Assembly: GCA_936941155.1 (NCBI GenBank)
Contig: CAKZJE010000108.1
Coordinates: 1 to 64,000 of the forward strand
Length of the DNA: 64,000 nt
Origin: an uncultured Methylomonas sp.
GTDB lineage: Bacteria > Pseudomonadota > Gammaproteobacteria > Methylococcales > Methylomonadaceae
Direction: 5' to 3'
Position 1 is the first letter of the stretch. Each line of letters opens with the position of its first letter. The translations under genes were made by a program, and so were the position numbers. The notes below the pieces were generated by a model, which was not told where the DNA came from, did no database searches, and worked only from the letters and a program-made list of their open reading frames with translations. Of the stretch, positions 133-50,181 are shown in pieces.

Positions 133-1110
133 TCAACCATTCCAACGATTTTTTATCTCTAAAATTTTCGGCAGAATCTCAATAAAAGCATCTACCAGCC
201 GTTTTTCTAAATGACTACCCGCCGATTCATGCAAAATAGGCAGGATTTGCTCCAATGGAAATGCTTCTTTATAAGGGCGACGCATGGAAAGCGCGTCAAA
301 AACATCCGCAACCGCCACAATCCGAGCCGACTCAGGAATATTTTCTCCAGAAATACCGTGCGGATAACCGCTGCCATCCCATTTTTCATGGTGATAAAGC
401 GCGATTTCAGCCGCGAGTTTAAATAACGGCGCGTTGCTTTTGCTGAGAATTTCAAAACCAATGGCGGAATGTTGCTTCATAATTTCCCATTCGTCTGCAT
501 CTAACTTGCCCGGCTTTTTCAAAATAGCATCAGGAATGCCAATTTTTCCCGTGTCGTGCATTGGTGCAGCCATTTCCAAAAGTTGCGCATCTCTTTTATT
601 CCAACCGATTTTTTCTGCAAGTAACCGACTATATGCCGCCATCCGCCAAATATGAACTCCCGTATCCGTGTCGTTGTAATGCCCAGCGGTAGCCAGCATA
701 TAAATAGCATCACGATGACTTGCTTCAAGTTGCGATGCGTTGACTAAAGAAATATGGGTTTTCACTCTAGCGCGGACAATATAAGGTGAAATCGGTTTGG
801 TAATGTAATCAACCCCGCCCACGCTAAAAGCAAGTTGTTCATCAATTTCATCCGATAAGCGAGTGATAAAAATAATCGGAATATGCGTTGTTGCTGGGTT
901 TTCTTTCAATTGCCTTGCCACTTCAAAGCCATCTTGATCTGGCATTAGCACATCAAGCAAAATCAAGGCTGGATTATGTTTGAGAGCAGCGGATAAAGCC
1001 CCCGCACCGTTTCTGGCAAATACCAATGGATAGTAATCTTGCAAAGTAGTACGCAACAACCGTAAGTTAATTGGGTCATCATCAACGCAGAGTATTGGGT
1101 GGGAAGGCAT
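133..1110 (-). CDS. Response regulator with HD-GYP domain (probable c-di-GMP phosphodiesterase)
   Basis: This is a 325-residue RpfG-like protein. Residues 1-120 form a receiver domain with acidic DDD at 10-12, phosphoacceptor Asp53 in LLDVLMPD, and Lys105. Residues 135-325 form an HD-GYP domain with HD at 185-186 (MHDTGKIG), a His pair at 240-241 and GYP at 248-250. The metal-binding His and Asp residues I can identify are present, so c-di-GMP hydrolysis controlled by phosphorylation is the expected activity. It lies 101 bp downstream of a large hybrid kinase on the same strand, the likely phosphodonor. Function is inferred from the family. Confidence 0.9.
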   Translation of the reverse strand: MPSHPILCVDDDPINLRLLRTTLQDYYPLVFARNGAGALSAALKHNPALILLDVLMPDQDGFEVARQLKENPATTHIPIIFITRLSDEIDEQLAFSVGGVDYITKPISPYIVRARVKTHISLVNASQLEASHRDAIYMLATAGHYNDTDTGVHIWRMAAYSRLLAEKIGWNKRDAQLLEMAAPMHDTGKIGIPDAILKKPGKLDADEWEIMKQHSAIGFEILSKSNAPLFKLAAEIALYHHEKWDGSGYPHGISGENIPESARIVAVADVFDALSMRRPYKEAFPLEQILPILHESAGSHLEKRLVDAFIEILPKILEIKNRWNG

Positions 1111-35923: not shown

Positions 35924-36013
35924 ATAGGGTGAAAAATAACAAGGGATTCGTGATGCCATTCACCATGTTTTGTCGATAAAGACTTGCCCGAGTCAAACCA
36001 TGAGCTTAAAACC

Positions 36014-37711
36014 ATGACACTATCAATTCAAAATTTGAAAAACGCAGCACTACATTTAGAAACAGTGTTTGCTTCGGCGTTAGATGCGATGGTTGTAACT
36101 GATGCACAAGGTGTGATTGCTGTGTTTAATCACGCCGCAGAACAAATGTTTGGTTATAGCAGTGATGAGGTTATAGGCTTGAATACCAGCATTTTAATGC
36201 CAATGCCAGACAGTTTGCATCATCATTTATACATGGAAAGATATATTGAAACTGGTCAAGCGCGAGTTCCAAGGAAAGGGCGGGAAGTGATTGCTAAGCA
36301 CCGAAACGGCGAAACTTTTTATGTCGATATTGCCATTAGTGATGTGCATGTAGAGGACGGAGTTATTTTTACAGCGGTCATTCGTGACATTAGTGCGCGA
36401 AAAGCCAAAGAAGAAAAAATTATGCGGTTGGCTTTTTTCGATCAAGAAACAGGTTTGCCGAATACTTATTATCTAATAGATAAACTAGAGTATTTTTTTA
36501 AACAAGCCTCCGATGACAATTTTCTGATTTTGATTTATATCGGTGATTTAACAAACTATATTAATATTTTTGGCTGCCAAGGCATTAAAGACGTAGTTAT
36601 CGCATTGGCGCATAGGTTAAAAATTCAACTGCCGAAGCAAAGCTTAATTGCGCGTTGTGACTCACGCCATTTAAAAGTGATTTATGCACCCGACAAAGGT
36701 GAGCAAGTCTGCGCTGAGCAATTGGCTAAACAAATTCAAGCGTGTTTGAATCAGCCATTAGAAATTGCAGGCAATCGAATTTTTTTAAATGCCTATTTTG
36801 GTATTTGCCAGATTATTCCGCAAATACACACCGTGAAATCCTTGCTCGATCACACTGATATTGCGCTGCATATTGCAAAGCAGCACATTGCACAAAACTA
36901 TGAGATTTTTCAAGAAAAGTTTGAAAGCACCTTACATCGTCGCGCTTTGCTGGTGCAAAAACTTTATCATGTGATGGAGAATCTTCCCTTTGAACTCTAT
37001 TTGCAACCGCAAATCAGTTTAAAAACAGAGCAAATTATCGGTGTAGAAGCTCTTATTCGTTGGCAAGATGTTGATGGAATGTGGATTTCACCTGCTGAGT
37101 TTATTCCGATTGCAGAAACGATAGGATTAATCAAAGACATTACGTTATGGACGTTAAAAAAAGCCAGCACTATTTTGAAAGATTGGCAGATTGCAGGACA
37201 GCAGCATTACCGGATTGCCATTAATATTTCTGCTCAAGTGATTTGTGCAGATACGTTTGTGGAAGAGATTAGTTGTTTTCTTGCTGAAACTCAAATTAAT
37301 CCGCGCATTTTAGAATTGGAAATTACAGAAACTGCATTAATGTTAAGCCTTGATACCGCAGTGAAAAACGTGGCGCAGTTATCAGCATTAGGCATTTCTA
37401 TTTCAATTGATGATTTTGGCACAGGATTATCATCATTGGCTTATCTAAAATGCTTTAAAGTAGATAGATTGAAGATAGATCAATCTTTTATTACTAATGC
37501 GTTGATGAATAAAGAAGATCAAGCGATGTTAGCGGGAATTATTGAATTTAGTCATGGCTTGGGTTATCAGGTGATCTGTGAAGGTGTGGAGCAGAAGGAG
37601 CAAGTGTTGTTACTTAAGCAATTAGGCTGTGATGAGATTCAAGGCTATTATTTTGCAAAACCGATGTTGCATACCGAGTTTTTGCAATTTGCTGAAAACT
37701 TTCGATTTTAA
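36014..37711 (+). CDS. PAS-GGDEF(degenerate)-EAL c-di-GMP phosphodiesterase
   Basis: The product is 565 residues from ATG 36014; an earlier TTG at 35984 is less likely. In order it has a PAS domain (VVTDAQGVIAVFNHAAEQMFGY), a GGDEF-like domain and an EAL domain. The GGDEF motif is lost: the segment expected to carry it reads ARCDSRHLKVIY, so cyclase activity is unlikely. The EAL domain keeps EALIRW, NISAQV, ELEITETALM, DDFGTGLSSL and QGYYFAKP, so c-di-GMP hydrolysis is expected. It lies just before a gene with a c-di-GMP riboswitch, on the opposite strand. Confidence 0.9.
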   Translation: MTLSIQNLKNAALHLETVFASALDAMVVTDAQGVIAVFNHAAEQMFGYSSDEVIGLNTSILMPMPDSLHHHLYMERYIETGQARVPRKGREVIAKHRNGETFYVDIAISDVHVEDGVIFTAVIRDISARKAKEEKIMRLAFFDQETGLPNTYYLIDKLEYFFKQASDDNFLILIYIGDLTNYINIFGCQGIKDVVIALAHRLKIQLPKQSLIARCDSRHLKVIYAPDKGEQVCAEQLAKQIQACLNQPLEIAGNRIFLNAYFGICQIIPQIHTVKSLLDHTDIALHIAKQHIAQNYEIFQEKFESTLHRRALLVQKLYHVMENLPFELYLQPQISLKTEQIIGVEALIRWQDVDGMWISPAEFIPIAETIGLIKDITLWTLKKASTILKDWQIAGQQHYRIAINISAQVICADTFVEEISCFLAETQINPRILELEITETALMLSLDTAVKNVAQLSALGISISIDDFGTGLSSLAYLKCFKVDRLKIDQSFITNALMNKEDQAMLAGIIEFSHGLGYQVICEGVEQKEQVLLLKQLGCDEIQGYYFAKPMLHTEFLQFAENFRF

Positions 37712-37782
37712 GAAAAAAAGAAAACTGGAGAGAATAAATCAATTCAGGTGTTGCTCAATTGATTTGTATTTATATTAGAAAC

Positions 37783-37820
37783 TCACCGCCTTATTACGAT
37801 TAAATCAAAGAAGGCGGTGA
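37783..37820 (-). terminator. Hairpin terminator of the PEP-CTERM gene
   Basis: TCACCGCCTT (37783-37792) pairs with AAGGCGGTGA (37811-37820). On the minus strand a T-rich segment follows. A weaker hairpin (37736-37765, AAATCAATT/AATTGATTT) lies nearer the convergent EAL gene. Confidence 0.5.
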
Positions 37821-37842
37821 ATTAATATAAAAAACATAACTC

Positions 37843-38370
37843 TTAAACAGTTGTGTTTTTACGACGTGACACGCTAACTAAACCAGCAATACCTGAACCG
37901 AACAACCAAAGAGCAGCAGGAATTGGTGTCGCAACAGCAGATATTTGATACTGAGAGGCGAGACGTGGTTTTAAAACCGAACCATCTATCGCAATTGTAT
38001 GTGAACCTGCCAGACTACTTAAGGCTGTGTATTGACCACTTACCAACGGCATATCAATACCATCTAATTTAACATAGTTGATTTTAAAATTTGTAGTTGG
38101 TAGTGGAACGGCAAAAGCATACACTTTAGACGCTGGATTAGATGTTAGCGTATAAATGTGCGAAAACAAACCGCTGAAAGTGTTTTTAAACGAAAACCAC
38201 CCATTGATTGCACTGTCATTATTTAGGCCTGATGTGAACTGCCCTTGAGCTGGAGTAGAGCCTGCTGGATTATTTGCACTCCAAGCTAAGGTTGCTGCTG
38301 AAGTTGATTGGACAAACAAAAAGCCCATTAATAAAACTACCGCAAATATTACTTTTTTCATGATATACAT
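37843..38370 (-). CDS. PEP-CTERM exported protein
   Basis: The 175-residue protein has an N-terminal signal peptide (KKVIFAVVLLMGFLFVQSTSA) and a C-terminal sorting signal. The tail reads TPIPAALWLFGSGIAGL followed by a basic cluster RRK, the VPxPAALWLFGSG variant of PEP-CTERM. Such proteins are processed by exosortase and commonly go to the cell surface or exopolysaccharide matrix. The middle has no recognised domain. Starts at 38370 or 38361 are both possible; the latter begins MKKVIF. A c-di-GMP-I riboswitch lies 38 nt upstream. No exosortase gene is in the window. Confidence 0.88.
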   Translation of the reverse strand: MYIMKKVIFAVVLLMGFLFVQSTSAATLAWSANNPAGSTPAQGQFTSGLNNDSAINGWFSFKNTFSGLFSHIYTLTSNPASKVYAFAVPLPTTNFKINYVKLDGIDMPLVSGQYTALSSLAGSHTIAIDGSVLKPRLASQYQISAVATPIPAALWLFGSGIAGLVSVSRRKNTTV

Positions 38371-38407
38371 CCCGAAATTTACAAATTATTTAAAAACTGA
38401 ATAATTC

Positions 38408-38482
38408 GCAACCCGGCTATCTTTTTACTTAACAAAAGACCCGCAGCTTTCCGTCCCTACTTCACAGTAGGTTTGGCTTTAT
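38408..38482 (-). promoter_or_regulatory. c-di-GMP-I (GEMM) riboswitch
   Basis: Read on the minus strand, the leader has the GEMM order of conserved blocks: GCCAAACC, a CTACT-GTGA-AGTAG hairpin closed by a GNRA tetraloop, GGGACG, AAAGC, GGGTCT, a variable loop, and GATAGCCGGGTTGC. These correspond to the binding core of known class I c-di-GMP riboswitches. It ends 38 nt before the PEP-CTERM start. Whether it switches on or off is not clear. Confidence 0.88.
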
Positions 38483-38927
38483 CTTCCTTGACTTGAGTCT
38501 ATATCAATTGACATAGTCCCAACTGTTACACTTTGAAGTAGCGAAAATATGTGTTTAAACGTAAGACGCATACTGTTCTTTTCTTCTCTAGCTGTTAATG
38601 TATGCTTAATGACGTAGAGGAGCATCATCCATTTGAGTGGTAAGGTGAAAACTGTGAATTACAACACCATTTATGTACTAGGAAACTATTAAATATTAGT
38701 AATGCACTGAAATTTATGCTCAATTACTTAGATAGTGAAAGAAAAATCATGTACAACGCTAAAATTACTGTATCGATAGTTTATAAATTAAGATTTTGTG
38801 CAGAAAAGCTTTAACATTTTCAAAATTGACTTTGAATCTATGACGCAATCTTAGATTCATTTAATAGCTTAAGGTTTTTCTGTTATATTTAAAAATAACT
38901 CACGATGACTTAATTGCTAATAAAAAA
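38483..38927. other. Intergenic region, promoters only
   Basis: The 445 bp between the riboswitch and the hemerythrin gene must hold two divergent promoters. No open frame with protein-like composition and no further structured RNA was seen on either strand. Confidence 0.5.
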
Positions 38928-39581
38928 ATGATGTTTGAAAACGAATGGTTTGAAAAATATAAAATTGGAGTGGCTTTAATTGATGCCGACCATTTAAATT
39001 TATTTAAGGAAGTTGAACGCTTTAATCAACACTTGCAAAGTGGCATGAGCACTGAAGAGCTTGGAAAATCCTTAAGCTTTCTTGATAAATACGTCGGGGC
39101 GCATTTTGCCCGCGAAGAAATCTTAATGCGTGAAAAAGGTTATCCCGACTATACGCAACACAAATCTTTGCATCTGCATTTAAAAAAAGTGGTATTTGCA
39201 GTGCGCCGTGTGTTTGAAACCGATATAGAAAAAGTTGATAAGGTAAAGCTGAATCAATTTTTGCATGATTGGTTAGTTGAACATATTTTAAGAGTGGATA
39301 CTGAATTAGTGCCTTATGTGAATGGCCCTTACGGAAGTAAAAACTCCTACGCAAATGAACGTTTGCAGTTTGAGCCTTTAAATGAAGAAGTGACTTTGGA
39401 CGAAGAGATGGTTGAGATTACCGTGAAAGTGCCTAAAAGTAAGCAAAAAGTCATTGAGCGTTGTGCATTTGCGTTAATGCAAAATACACCCGAAGCGCAA
39501 GATTTGGAAGAAATTGCGTTGGCGGCAACAGGCATGACTATTGAAGAAGCGTTAGAGCTTGCTGGCGCGGTGTTGTATTAG
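38928..39581 (+). CDS. Bacteriohemerythrin with C-terminal extension
   Basis: Residues 1-130 of 217 match hemerythrin: IDADHLNLF, HFAREEILMREKGYP, QHKSLHLHL and WLVEHILRVD supply the His, Glu and Asp ligands of a di-iron O2-binding site. The remaining 85 residues are acidic and helical (LDEEMVEITVKVP, LEEIALAATGMTIEEALEL) and are not part of the usual fold. Hemerythrins are frequent in methanotrophs, where delivery of O2 to methane monooxygenase has been proposed. The DUF5765-like gene downstream may or may not be cotranscribed. Confidence 0.9.
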   Translation: MMFENEWFEKYKIGVALIDADHLNLFKEVERFNQHLQSGMSTEELGKSLSFLDKYVGAHFAREEILMREKGYPDYTQHKSLHLHLKKVVFAVRRVFETDIEKVDKVKLNQFLHDWLVEHILRVDTELVPYVNGPYGSKNSYANERLQFEPLNEEVTLDEEMVEITVKVPKSKQKVIERCAFALMQNTPEAQDLEEIALAATGMTIEEALELAGAVLY

Positions 39582-48421: not shown

Positions 48422-49729
48422 TTAAGACGGTTTAATAGCAAACTCTACACGGTTTCGCCCTGCTTCTTTTGCCTTATACAGCGCATTGTCTGCCCGAATC
48501 AGAGCCGCATCACAATTGCTATCGGTAACTTCCATTGCTGCAATGCCAATACTCACGGTAATAGCAATCGCAACATCGCCGAGCATCAAAGGATTATTTT
48601 TTATATCAAGGTGCAATCGCTCAGCAAAAACTTTGGCGGCAAAAATAGGCGTATCAGGCAGCAAAACAGAAAATTCTTCACCGCCTAAACGACCTGCTAT
48701 GTCAGTTTTGCGCAAATTATTGCGTACCAGCATACTAAAATTTTTCAACAGCGCATCGCCGACGGCATGACCATAACCATCATTAACACGCTTAAAATAA
48801 TCTATATCCAGCATTAATACAGCAACATTATGATCTTCAAAGCGTTGCACTCGCGCAAATTCTTTTTCAAGTAAATCCATAAAATGCCGACGATTATAAA
48901 GACTGGTTAAAAAGTCCATTGTCGCCATTTCCCATAACTGCCCTTGCAATTGAATGCGTTCAGTAATGTCTTGTTTTATTCCAACAAAATGCCGAATTAC
49001 GCCTTTGTCATCTGTCACGGGCGTGATGCTTAATTCTTCGGTGTACAACGTTCCGTCTTTGCGTTTATTGGTGATTTTGCCGCACCATGTTTCGCCACTG
49101 AGAACAGTGCGCCACATGTCTTGATAAAACACTTCCTCTTGCTCACCTGACTTGACTAATTCAGACGGATTTTTGCCATAAGCTTCATTGAAACTATAGC
49201 CCGTTAGTTTTTCAAATGCGGGATTAACCCATTCAATTTTCGCGTCTATATCAGTAATCACAACGCCGTAACGCACGGCTTTTAACGCTGAAACCAACAG
49301 TCTGTCGCGTTCTTCTGATTTTTGTAAACGTTGTTCCAATTTGGCTCGGCTAATTGCGTAACGAATAGATCGCACCAAGCTATCGGTGTCAAAACTGCCT
49401 TTGATGATGTAATCTTGCGCTCCGGCTTCTAAAGCTTTTAGGGCAAAACTGGTGTCATCATGTCCTGTTAAAACAATAATCGGTAATGCGCCTGCAATAT
49501 GCCGTCCAGTTTTAACCGTTTCGATACCTGTGGAATCAGGCAGCGATAAATCGAGCAATAACACGGCAGGGGGATTGTCCGCTAATTGCTGTTCAACCTC
49601 GCCCATCGTTGTCACCCAAGTGATTTCAAAACGAATTTCACCTGCACCGCGCAGTGCTGAGCGCACCAGATGTGCGTCACTAGGGTCATCTTCTATCAAT
49701 AACACACGATAGCTTGTTGCCATGTTCAT
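48422..49729 (-). CDS. REC-PAS-GGDEF diguanylate cyclase
   Basis: The product is 435 residues from ATG 49729, which overlaps the stop of the upstream receiver gene (ATGA). In order it has a receiver (LIEDDPSDAHL, LLLDLSLPDSTG, DYIIKGSF), a PAS domain (VVITDIDAKIEWVNPAFEKLTGY) and a GGDEF domain (MLDIDYFKRVNDGYGHAVGD, RLGGEEFSVLLPD). The active-site GGEEF is intact, so it probably makes c-di-GMP. It is the last gene of a four-gene operon that starts with a 2032-residue kinase. Confidence 0.92.
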   Translation of the reverse strand: MNMATSYRVLLIEDDPSDAHLVRSALRGAGEIRFEITWVTTMGEVEQQLADNPPAVLLLDLSLPDSTGIETVKTGRHIAGALPIIVLTGHDDTSFALKALEAGAQDYIIKGSFDTDSLVRSIRYAISRAKLEQRLQKSEERDRLLVSALKAVRYGVVITDIDAKIEWVNPAFEKLTGYSFNEAYGKNPSELVKSGEQEEVFYQDMWRTVLSGETWCGKITNKRKDGTLYTEELSITPVTDDKGVIRHFVGIKQDITERIQLQGQLWEMATMDFLTSLYNRRHFMDLLEKEFARVQRFEDHNVAVLMLDIDYFKRVNDGYGHAVGDALLKNFSMLVRNNLRKTDIAGRLGGEEFSVLLPDTPIFAAKVFAERLHLDIKNNPLMLGDVAIAITVSIGIAAMEVTDSNCDAALIRADNALYKAKEAGRNRVEFAIKPS

Positions 49730-50181
49730 GATGCAACTCTTTTGGGCAATTTCACCAAGGCAAACCAATAATTATCGAGTTGACGAATGGCTTCAATAAA
49801 CTGATCTATATCAACGGGTTTGGTAATGTATCCTGCCGCGCCCTTTTGATAGGAGGTTCTGATATCTTGATCTGTGTCAGAGGTTGTGAGTACAACCACA
49901 GGAATTGCCGCCAACTTTTCATCGGCTTTTATCGCACTTAAAAATTCACACCCATTCATGCGCGGCATATTGATGTCTACTAAAATCAAATCAGGACGCG
50001 GTGCGTTGCTATTTTGAGAACCTTCACGCCGCAAAAACGCCAATCCTTCAATGCCATCAAAAACATGGTGCAAATGACAAAAAACTCGATTTTCCTTTAA
50101 AGCCAAACGCACTAAATTAGCATCCGCTGGCTCATCTTCTATGAGTAAAATTTCAAAAGGTTCTGTTATTTCGTAAATCAT
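49726..50181 (-). CDS. Single-domain response regulator (Rcp1-like)
   Basis: The 151-residue protein is one receiver domain: LLIEDEPADANLVRLAL, LILVDINMPRMNG with the phosphoacceptor Asp, VVLTTSD and ITKPVD. The pattern resembles Rcp1-type receivers that partner with phytochrome-like kinases. It starts 3 bp after the upstream kinase and overlaps the diguanylate cyclase gene by 4 bp, so all are cotranscribed. Confidence 0.93.
   Translation of the reverse strand: MIYEITEPFEILLIEDEPADANLVRLALKENRVFCHLHHVFDGIEGLAFLRREGSQNSNAPRPDLILVDINMPRMNGCEFLSAIKADEKLAAIPVVVLTTSDTDQDIRTSYQKGAAGYITKPVDIDQFIEAIRQLDNYWFALVKLPKRVAS

Follow-up and report, generated by a model that had tools for sequence, protein, structure and literature searches.

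c-di-GMP-I riboswitch elements lead ten of the eleven PEP-CTERM-type genes of an uncultured Methylomonas genome, a probable surface-protein regulon

Results

A c-di-GMP-I riboswitch aptamer was found in the leader of a gene for an exported PEP-CTERM-type protein on the minus strand of the window (the whole 64,000-nucleotide stretch of DNA that was analyzed), and this pair is one of ten in the genome, a scope that the initial annotation, which described the window pair, had understated. The pair is probably a single unit of a larger regulon in which c-di-GMP-I riboswitches govern XrtD-type surface proteins; a competing hairpin would act as the gate and c-di-GMP would turn expression on. The features concerned are as follows.

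38403-38487, minus strand: c-di-GMP-I riboswitch aptamer (RF01051, 65.9 bits; RF03167, 60.2 bits; residues read in the sequence)
38379-38411, minus strand: predicted competing hairpin, in which 38411-38400 pairs with 38390-38379 and which includes UGC(92) (minimum-energy fold, -7.4 kcal/mol)
38369-38374, minus strand: probable Shine-Dalgarno sequence CGGGAT, 7 nt 5' of the ATG at 38361 (sequence)
37843-38361, minus strand: exported 172-aa protein with a PEP-CTERM-type tail (37855-37932), a signal-peptide-like start (by eye) and no recognized domain (profile searches)
35984-37711, plus strand: PAS-GGDEF-EAL protein, convergent neighbor, with SRHLK at its GGDEF motif by eye (Pfam)
133-1110, minus strand: response regulator with an HD domain (domain search)
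48422-49768, minus strand: response regulator with PAS and GGDEF domains (domain search)

The aptamer and gene in the window

A search of the genome with RF01051 (c-di-GMP-I) matched 38404-38487 on the minus strand (gathering score 35, E = 1.8e-12), bearing out the class that the initial annotation had proposed, and the core GEMM blocks it had listed were all present in the sequence (AAACC, a GUGA loop closing P2, GGGACG, AAAGC, GGGUCU and AGCCGGGUUGC). RF03167 (c-di-GMP-I-GGC), a second Rfam model of the same clan, matched 38403-38486 on that strand when Rfam was run over the window (gathering score 59). The residues that we take to be the ligand residues of c-di-GMP-I, in what we assume to be Vc2 numbering, were read as G20 (38477), A47 (38450) and C92 (38408), the last of which presumably contacts the ligand; from these roles, c-di-GMP should be the ligand of the window aptamer. 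The alignment to RF03167 flagged the P1 pairs of the aptamer as non-standard; by eye, P1 may be shifted.

The element is a sense leader, as had been claimed, although the distance from the end of the RF01051 match to the ATG at 38361, on the same strand, was 42 nt and not 38 nt; an in-frame ATG at 38370, at 33 nt, overlaps the Shine-Dalgarno sequence, and 38361 is the likelier start. Both the switch class and its placement before a tail gene are well supported. For the protein, a PDB sequence search stayed at chance level (best E = 0.52) and the structure predicted from the single sequence had a mean pLDDT of 50. Its tail scored below the curated cut-offs (PF07589, 13.6 of 20.7; TIGR03370, 20.8 of 25.35; TIGR02595, 13.5 of 16), and it is called PEP-CTERM-type because it falls within the clear 11-member tail family of this genome. 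With this qualification, the earlier placement of the element as the leader of an exported PEP-CTERM protein is supported.

The PAS-GGDEF-EAL gene is convergent with the PEP-CTERM-type gene and lies 131 bases from its end, so that the EAL neighbor noted earlier is indeed present; as a general feature of riboswitch-PEP pairs it was rejected, since the ten pairs are spread over five contigs. The other c-di-GMP enzymes said to lie in the window were recovered as the two response regulators listed above. A bacteriohemerythrin gene (38928-39581, plus strand; 101.5 bits, cut-off 84) diverges from the riboswitch leader.

Distribution of elements and tail genes in the genome

The assembly (4.26 Mb, 124 contigs) contained 11 c-di-GMP-I elements and 11 tail genes, with an overlap of ten of each. 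Ten elements were followed, at 31-47 nt to the likely ATG, by an ORF of 167-217 aa whose PEP-CTERM-type tail resembles TPIPAAxWLFGSGLAGL..RRKK, while the eleventh (C87:3533) leads a 372-aa protein that carries an Lcl C-terminal domain. The tail search was performed with a profile of 14 rows, eight of them tails of this genome, including that of the window, and yielded 11 genes at or above 55.4 bits, the next match scoring 12.6; five of the 11 reach the TIGR02595 cut-off. Riboswitch-led tail genes were distributed over contigs C100 (n = 4), C34 (n = 2), C36 (n = 2), C112 (n = 1) and C108 (n = 1). No c-di-GMP-I match was obtained around the tail gene C100:43375, even at an E-value of 10. The probability of the overlap (4e-28) assumes 4000 genes and independence among genes, and the conclusion does not rest on it; the cassettes are paralogous, and the ten pairs therefore represent fewer independent events.

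The exosortase family PF09721 had one match in the genome, C100:24080, which was XrtD (VPLPA-type, TIGR04152; 531.6 bits of 400). Four tandem riboswitch-PEP cassettes lie 2-6 kb from xrtD, on a contig that also encodes a polysaccharide export protein, a bacterial sugar transferase, a Wzz-type chain-length protein and a large TPR protein, a gene content that would be expected for an exopolysaccharide-exosortase cluster. The genome resembles the XrtD type of PEP-CTERM/exosortase system in its XrtD above the cut-off and in its short hydrophobic tails ending in R/K, and differs from it in that the tails mostly read TPIPAA instead of VPLPA and mostly score near or below the curated cut-offs. The PEP-CTERM-box response regulator model TIGR02915 gave three matches in the genome, the best at 370.6 and none over the cut-off of 502.6.

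Other genes were observed around the array on C100. An NtrC-type regulator, a CDC48-type AAA ATPase, a GvpF-like protein (weak, 31 of 350 bits) and a histidine kinase lie beside it (L023:656-8683), perhaps as a gas-vesicle cluster adjoining the exosortase cluster. The interval from the array to xrtD holds a RepM-like replication protein (L023:13547-14716; 128.8 bits, cut-off 250), and close to the element-free tail gene there is, by eye, an ORF resembling a resolvase (L176:9837-10388); these are read as traces of mobile DNA in the cluster.

Competing hairpin and direction of switching

In the mechanism that we propose, a separate aptamer would head each mRNA. When c-di-GMP is absent, the aptamer's 3' end, including C92, would pair with the stretch immediately 5' of the ribosome site, whereas bound c-di-GMP would keep C92 in the aptamer, block the hairpin and raise translation; the PEP-CTERM-type proteins would thus be made at high c-di-GMP. 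If C92 contacts the ligand, as presumed above, the hairpin and the bound aptamer would be mutually exclusive. A scan of 37700-38900 detected no intrinsic terminator 3' of the element on the minus strand, its one site being on the plus strand inside the aptamer, and this favors translational control. We infer that the ligand is bound in the cell, that control is translational and that the proteins are sorted by XrtD.

The hairpin predicted in the window leader has a 12-bp stem, and its UGC had a pairing probability of 0.95 versus 0.48 in shuffled sequences (p = 0.07). Similar hairpins were predicted in 10 of the 11 leaders of the genome, that is, in nine of the ten PEP-CTERM leaders and in L006, L011 being the exception; in the PEP-CTERM leaders the downstream arm is immediately 5' of the Shine-Dalgarno region or overlaps it, and in L006 it is further off. 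Mean UGC pairing over the 11 leaders, which are related to each other, was 0.84 versus 0.47 in shuffles, and individual significance (p <= 0.05) was reached by two of the 11 leaders with this measure and by four with the duplex measure. In the arm-swap control, own arms (-8.43) were hardly better than swapped ones (-7.58); this and the duplex test covered the 11 leaders and 64 of 93 leaders from relatives (those with an ATG within 160 nt that opens at least 60 codons), and the UGC-pairing test covered the 11 and the 35 of those 64 that were of 75 nt or less. Among these relatives there was little excess, UGC pairing against shuffles being 0.56 versus 0.44 in 29 leaders of up to 60 nt, and 0.43 versus 0.52 in six of 61-75 nt. 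On these predictions, the competing hairpin is moderately supported.

Modeling of Shine-Dalgarno access upon hairpin release gave mixed results, and our preference for c-di-GMP as an ON signal is only somewhat better than even. Access rose clearly in L002, L004 and L010 and slightly in L003, L005, L006 and L008; the opposite sign, in which the same regulon is repressed by c-di-GMP and the proteins are made when it is low, is consistent with the unchanged access in the window leader (L001) and with the drop in L007, L009 and L011. c-di-GMP riboswitches occur with both signs, which also counts for that alternative. Transcript levels in Methylophaga nitratireducenticrescens GP59, as given in an excerpt of the published report, are divided too, one PEP-linked riboswitch being higher in planktonic cells and the other three in biofilm, where riboswitches of other classes were also higher (PMC12530212). 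The opposite sign, against which stand the three leaders in which release frees the Shine-Dalgarno sequence and the three riboswitches that were higher in biofilm, is unlikely, and activation by c-di-GMP is retained as the preferred reading.

Candidate promoters

Sites of the -24/-12 type (TGGCACG-N4-TTGC) conforming at 11 of 11 scored positions were found before L005, L008 and L009, ending 5 nt before the element, a spacing from which transcripts would start at or inside P1. Overall, a site scoring 9 or more accompanied 12 of 104 elements, inside the element in one case, compared with 0.16% in shuffles. The scan found no such site before the window element, and a sigma-70 scan of 37700-38900 gave three sites versus 4.6 expected from shuffles, none of them on the minus strand. 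A -24/-12 promoter has been mapped for pepA of Aquincola tertiaricarbonis, an RpoN-dependent PEP-CTERM gene, to which the three cassettes with perfect sites are comparable, whereas c-di-GMP and riboswitches go unmentioned in the excerpted text of that work (PMC9850573).

Presence of the pairing in related genomes

Among 60 relatives of its order, the Methylococcales, 22 genomes held 93 further elements, the contexts of which were all examined. A tail gene followed the element in 37 of the 93, in 12 of the 22 genomes, at a tail score of 15 bits, so that the riboswitch-PEP-CTERM arrangement which the initial annotation had suggested looking for does recur in related genomes; the counts were 44 of 93 in 15 genomes at 0 bits and 35 of 93 at 20 bits. 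The figure of 37 is probably low, since elements at the end of a stretch and tails recognized by eye were counted as misses (L086, L100 and L156, which end before any ORF; several ORFs running off the stretch; L124 and L144, with a PEP tail by eye). Searches in relatives and in the wider class used stricter filters that lose weak matches, and four of the 93 elements (L154-L157) are below the RF01051 cut-off.

Elsewhere in the class, the Gammaproteobacteria, one of 40 sampled elements leads a tail gene, at 19.3 bits and thus lost at 20. This sample was hand-picked (40 of 84 elements, from 26 of 42 genomes outside the order, with two to five elements from each of six multi-element genomes and one from each of twenty others), and the Fisher test of order against class (p = 2e-6) treats elements as independent. 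The contrast between 37 of 93 and 1 of 40 indicates that the riboswitch-tail link is characteristic of the lineage and not of the class. The link is not obligatory within the order: seven element-bearing relatives have no pair even at 0 bits, the 29 tail genes of one relative (G008) are accompanied by no element at all, and about an eighth of the 307 tail genes in the 22 element-bearing relatives are riboswitch-led, versus 10 of 11 here. A scan of genome contigs with a PEP-CTERM protein pair found nothing; with XrtD it found three metagenome-assembled genomes, two of Methylophaga and one of Pseudomonadales, at 39-47% identity, and no Rfam match over the gathering score was obtained in those three stretches.

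By eye, the ORFs that follow elements in relatives also include very large, exported, adhesin-like ones (L076, L077, L078, L083 and L104), several of them with a clean competing stem before the start, such as GGUUGCC with GGCAAC.

Diversity and exchange of elements

The ten PEP-led elements of the genome were 67-97% identical. In L008 and L009 the elements are 97% and the coding sequences less than 60% identical, and in L005 and L011 the coding sequences are 97% and the elements 72% identical; exchange has taken place between leaders and coding sequences, with the pairing of RNA and tail retained. G20, A47 and C92 are retained in 10 of the 11 elements, all except L011, and L007 and L010 show, by eye, a compensating outer P2 pair. 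These features argue against decayed or passenger leaders, copied along with their genes and with regulation lost, as do the like leaders before unlike genes, the unlike leaders before like genes and the recurrence of the pairing in 12 of the 22 element-bearing relatives. Such decay would account for the tandem paralogues, the weak P1 of the window element, the 90% identity of the element-free C100:43375 to a riboswitch-led coding sequence and a -24/-12 site of L003 that looks eroded by eye; on balance it is improbable, and leaders maintained as working c-di-GMP switches are preferred.

Variant elements were recorded as well. L011 (G000:C112:54395-54476) has G at position 47 and no competing hairpin, scored 54.0 bits with RF03167 (below the cut-off of 59) and 46.4 with RF01051, and is possibly a variant of the GGC type that responds differently. 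A subclass in relatives (24 loci, including L084, L091 and L126-L134), mostly before PEP-CTERM genes, reads GCCACACC...GGGCCGGAAAGCC and often has, by eye, C for A in both P2-flanking strands, a paired change that points to a separate aptamer subtype. Position 92, assigned by a simple offset rule, was U in seven of the 93 elements (L090, L096, L101, L108, L125, L137 and L146), several of which precede PEP-CTERM genes; either the reading is shifted by one base or the base that contacts the ligand has changed. Position 20 was A in two of the 93 (L093 and L105).

The GGC name is taken to mean G at position 47, which the RF03167 consensus itself has, and A at position 20 in GEMM-I is assumed to be the change for cAMP-GMP sensing. 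That the window aptamer senses the unknown ligand of the GGC variant or cAMP-GMP is highly improbable, for although RF03167 was the best cmscan match, just over its cut-off, and L011 has G47, the window element has A at 38450 and G at 38477, and its margin is larger with RF01051 (65.9 of 35) than with RF03167 (60.2 of 59). The GGC match was accordingly rejected as a sign of another ligand, on account of A47.

Discussion

The element adds a member to a known riboswitch class, within a probable regulon that is unusual and lineage-specific. It is like other c-di-GMP-I (GEMM-I, RF01051) riboswitches in its aptamer fold, its G20, A47 and C92 and its leader position, and unlike them in the weak P1 of the window element and in the gene set served, with eleven elements in one genome. 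PEP-CTERM genes as outputs of c-di-GMP riboswitches, which the initial annotation considered new, have precedent in the four such genes of GP59 (PMC12530212). According to the excerpt of that 2025 report, four of the seven c-di-GMP riboswitches of GP59 directly precede VPLPA- or PEP-CTERM genes, which cluster with exopolysaccharide genes as they do here, compared with 10 of 11 elements and 10 of 11 tail genes in our genome; the excerpt offers an annotation table and transcript levels, and no switch mechanism (PMC12530212). Geobacter GEMM-I elements are mentioned elsewhere in a passage from which PEP-CTERM is absent (PMC10599522). In the open-licence literature, where absence is weak evidence, no further paper linked, judging by its listing, a c-di-GMP riboswitch with PEP-CTERM, and the searches gave no case of near-complete riboswitch coverage of an exosortase substrate set.

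The chances are evenly balanced that nearly the whole exosortase-type surface proteome forms a c-di-GMP riboswitch regulon, in which each gene would have an aptamer and a C92-capturing hairpin, some behind sigma-54 promoters, with diverged aptamers and leaders exchanged as modules. If so, a single second messenger would adjust many surface proteins together at the RNA level, and the diverged aptamers would perhaps give different thresholds; the eleven natural aptamers of the same class in one genome provide a set for asking whether leaders that share a signal are tuned differently.

To our knowledge, the role of exosortase substrates and the timing of their production are poorly known. That nearly all the export-type proteins of this genome are riboswitch-led suggests one signal setting much of the surface coat, and if nearly all substrates answer to c-di-GMP through leader RNAs, they would be part of a surface or attachment programme. 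The genome encodes a PmoA-family protein (methane/ammonia monooxygenase subunit A; 352.5 bits, cut-off 318), a family that was also matched at E <= 0.001 in 34 of 40 relatives searched, and the host is therefore very probably a methane oxidizer. With hosts that are very probably methanotrophs, their aggregation bears on methane removal.
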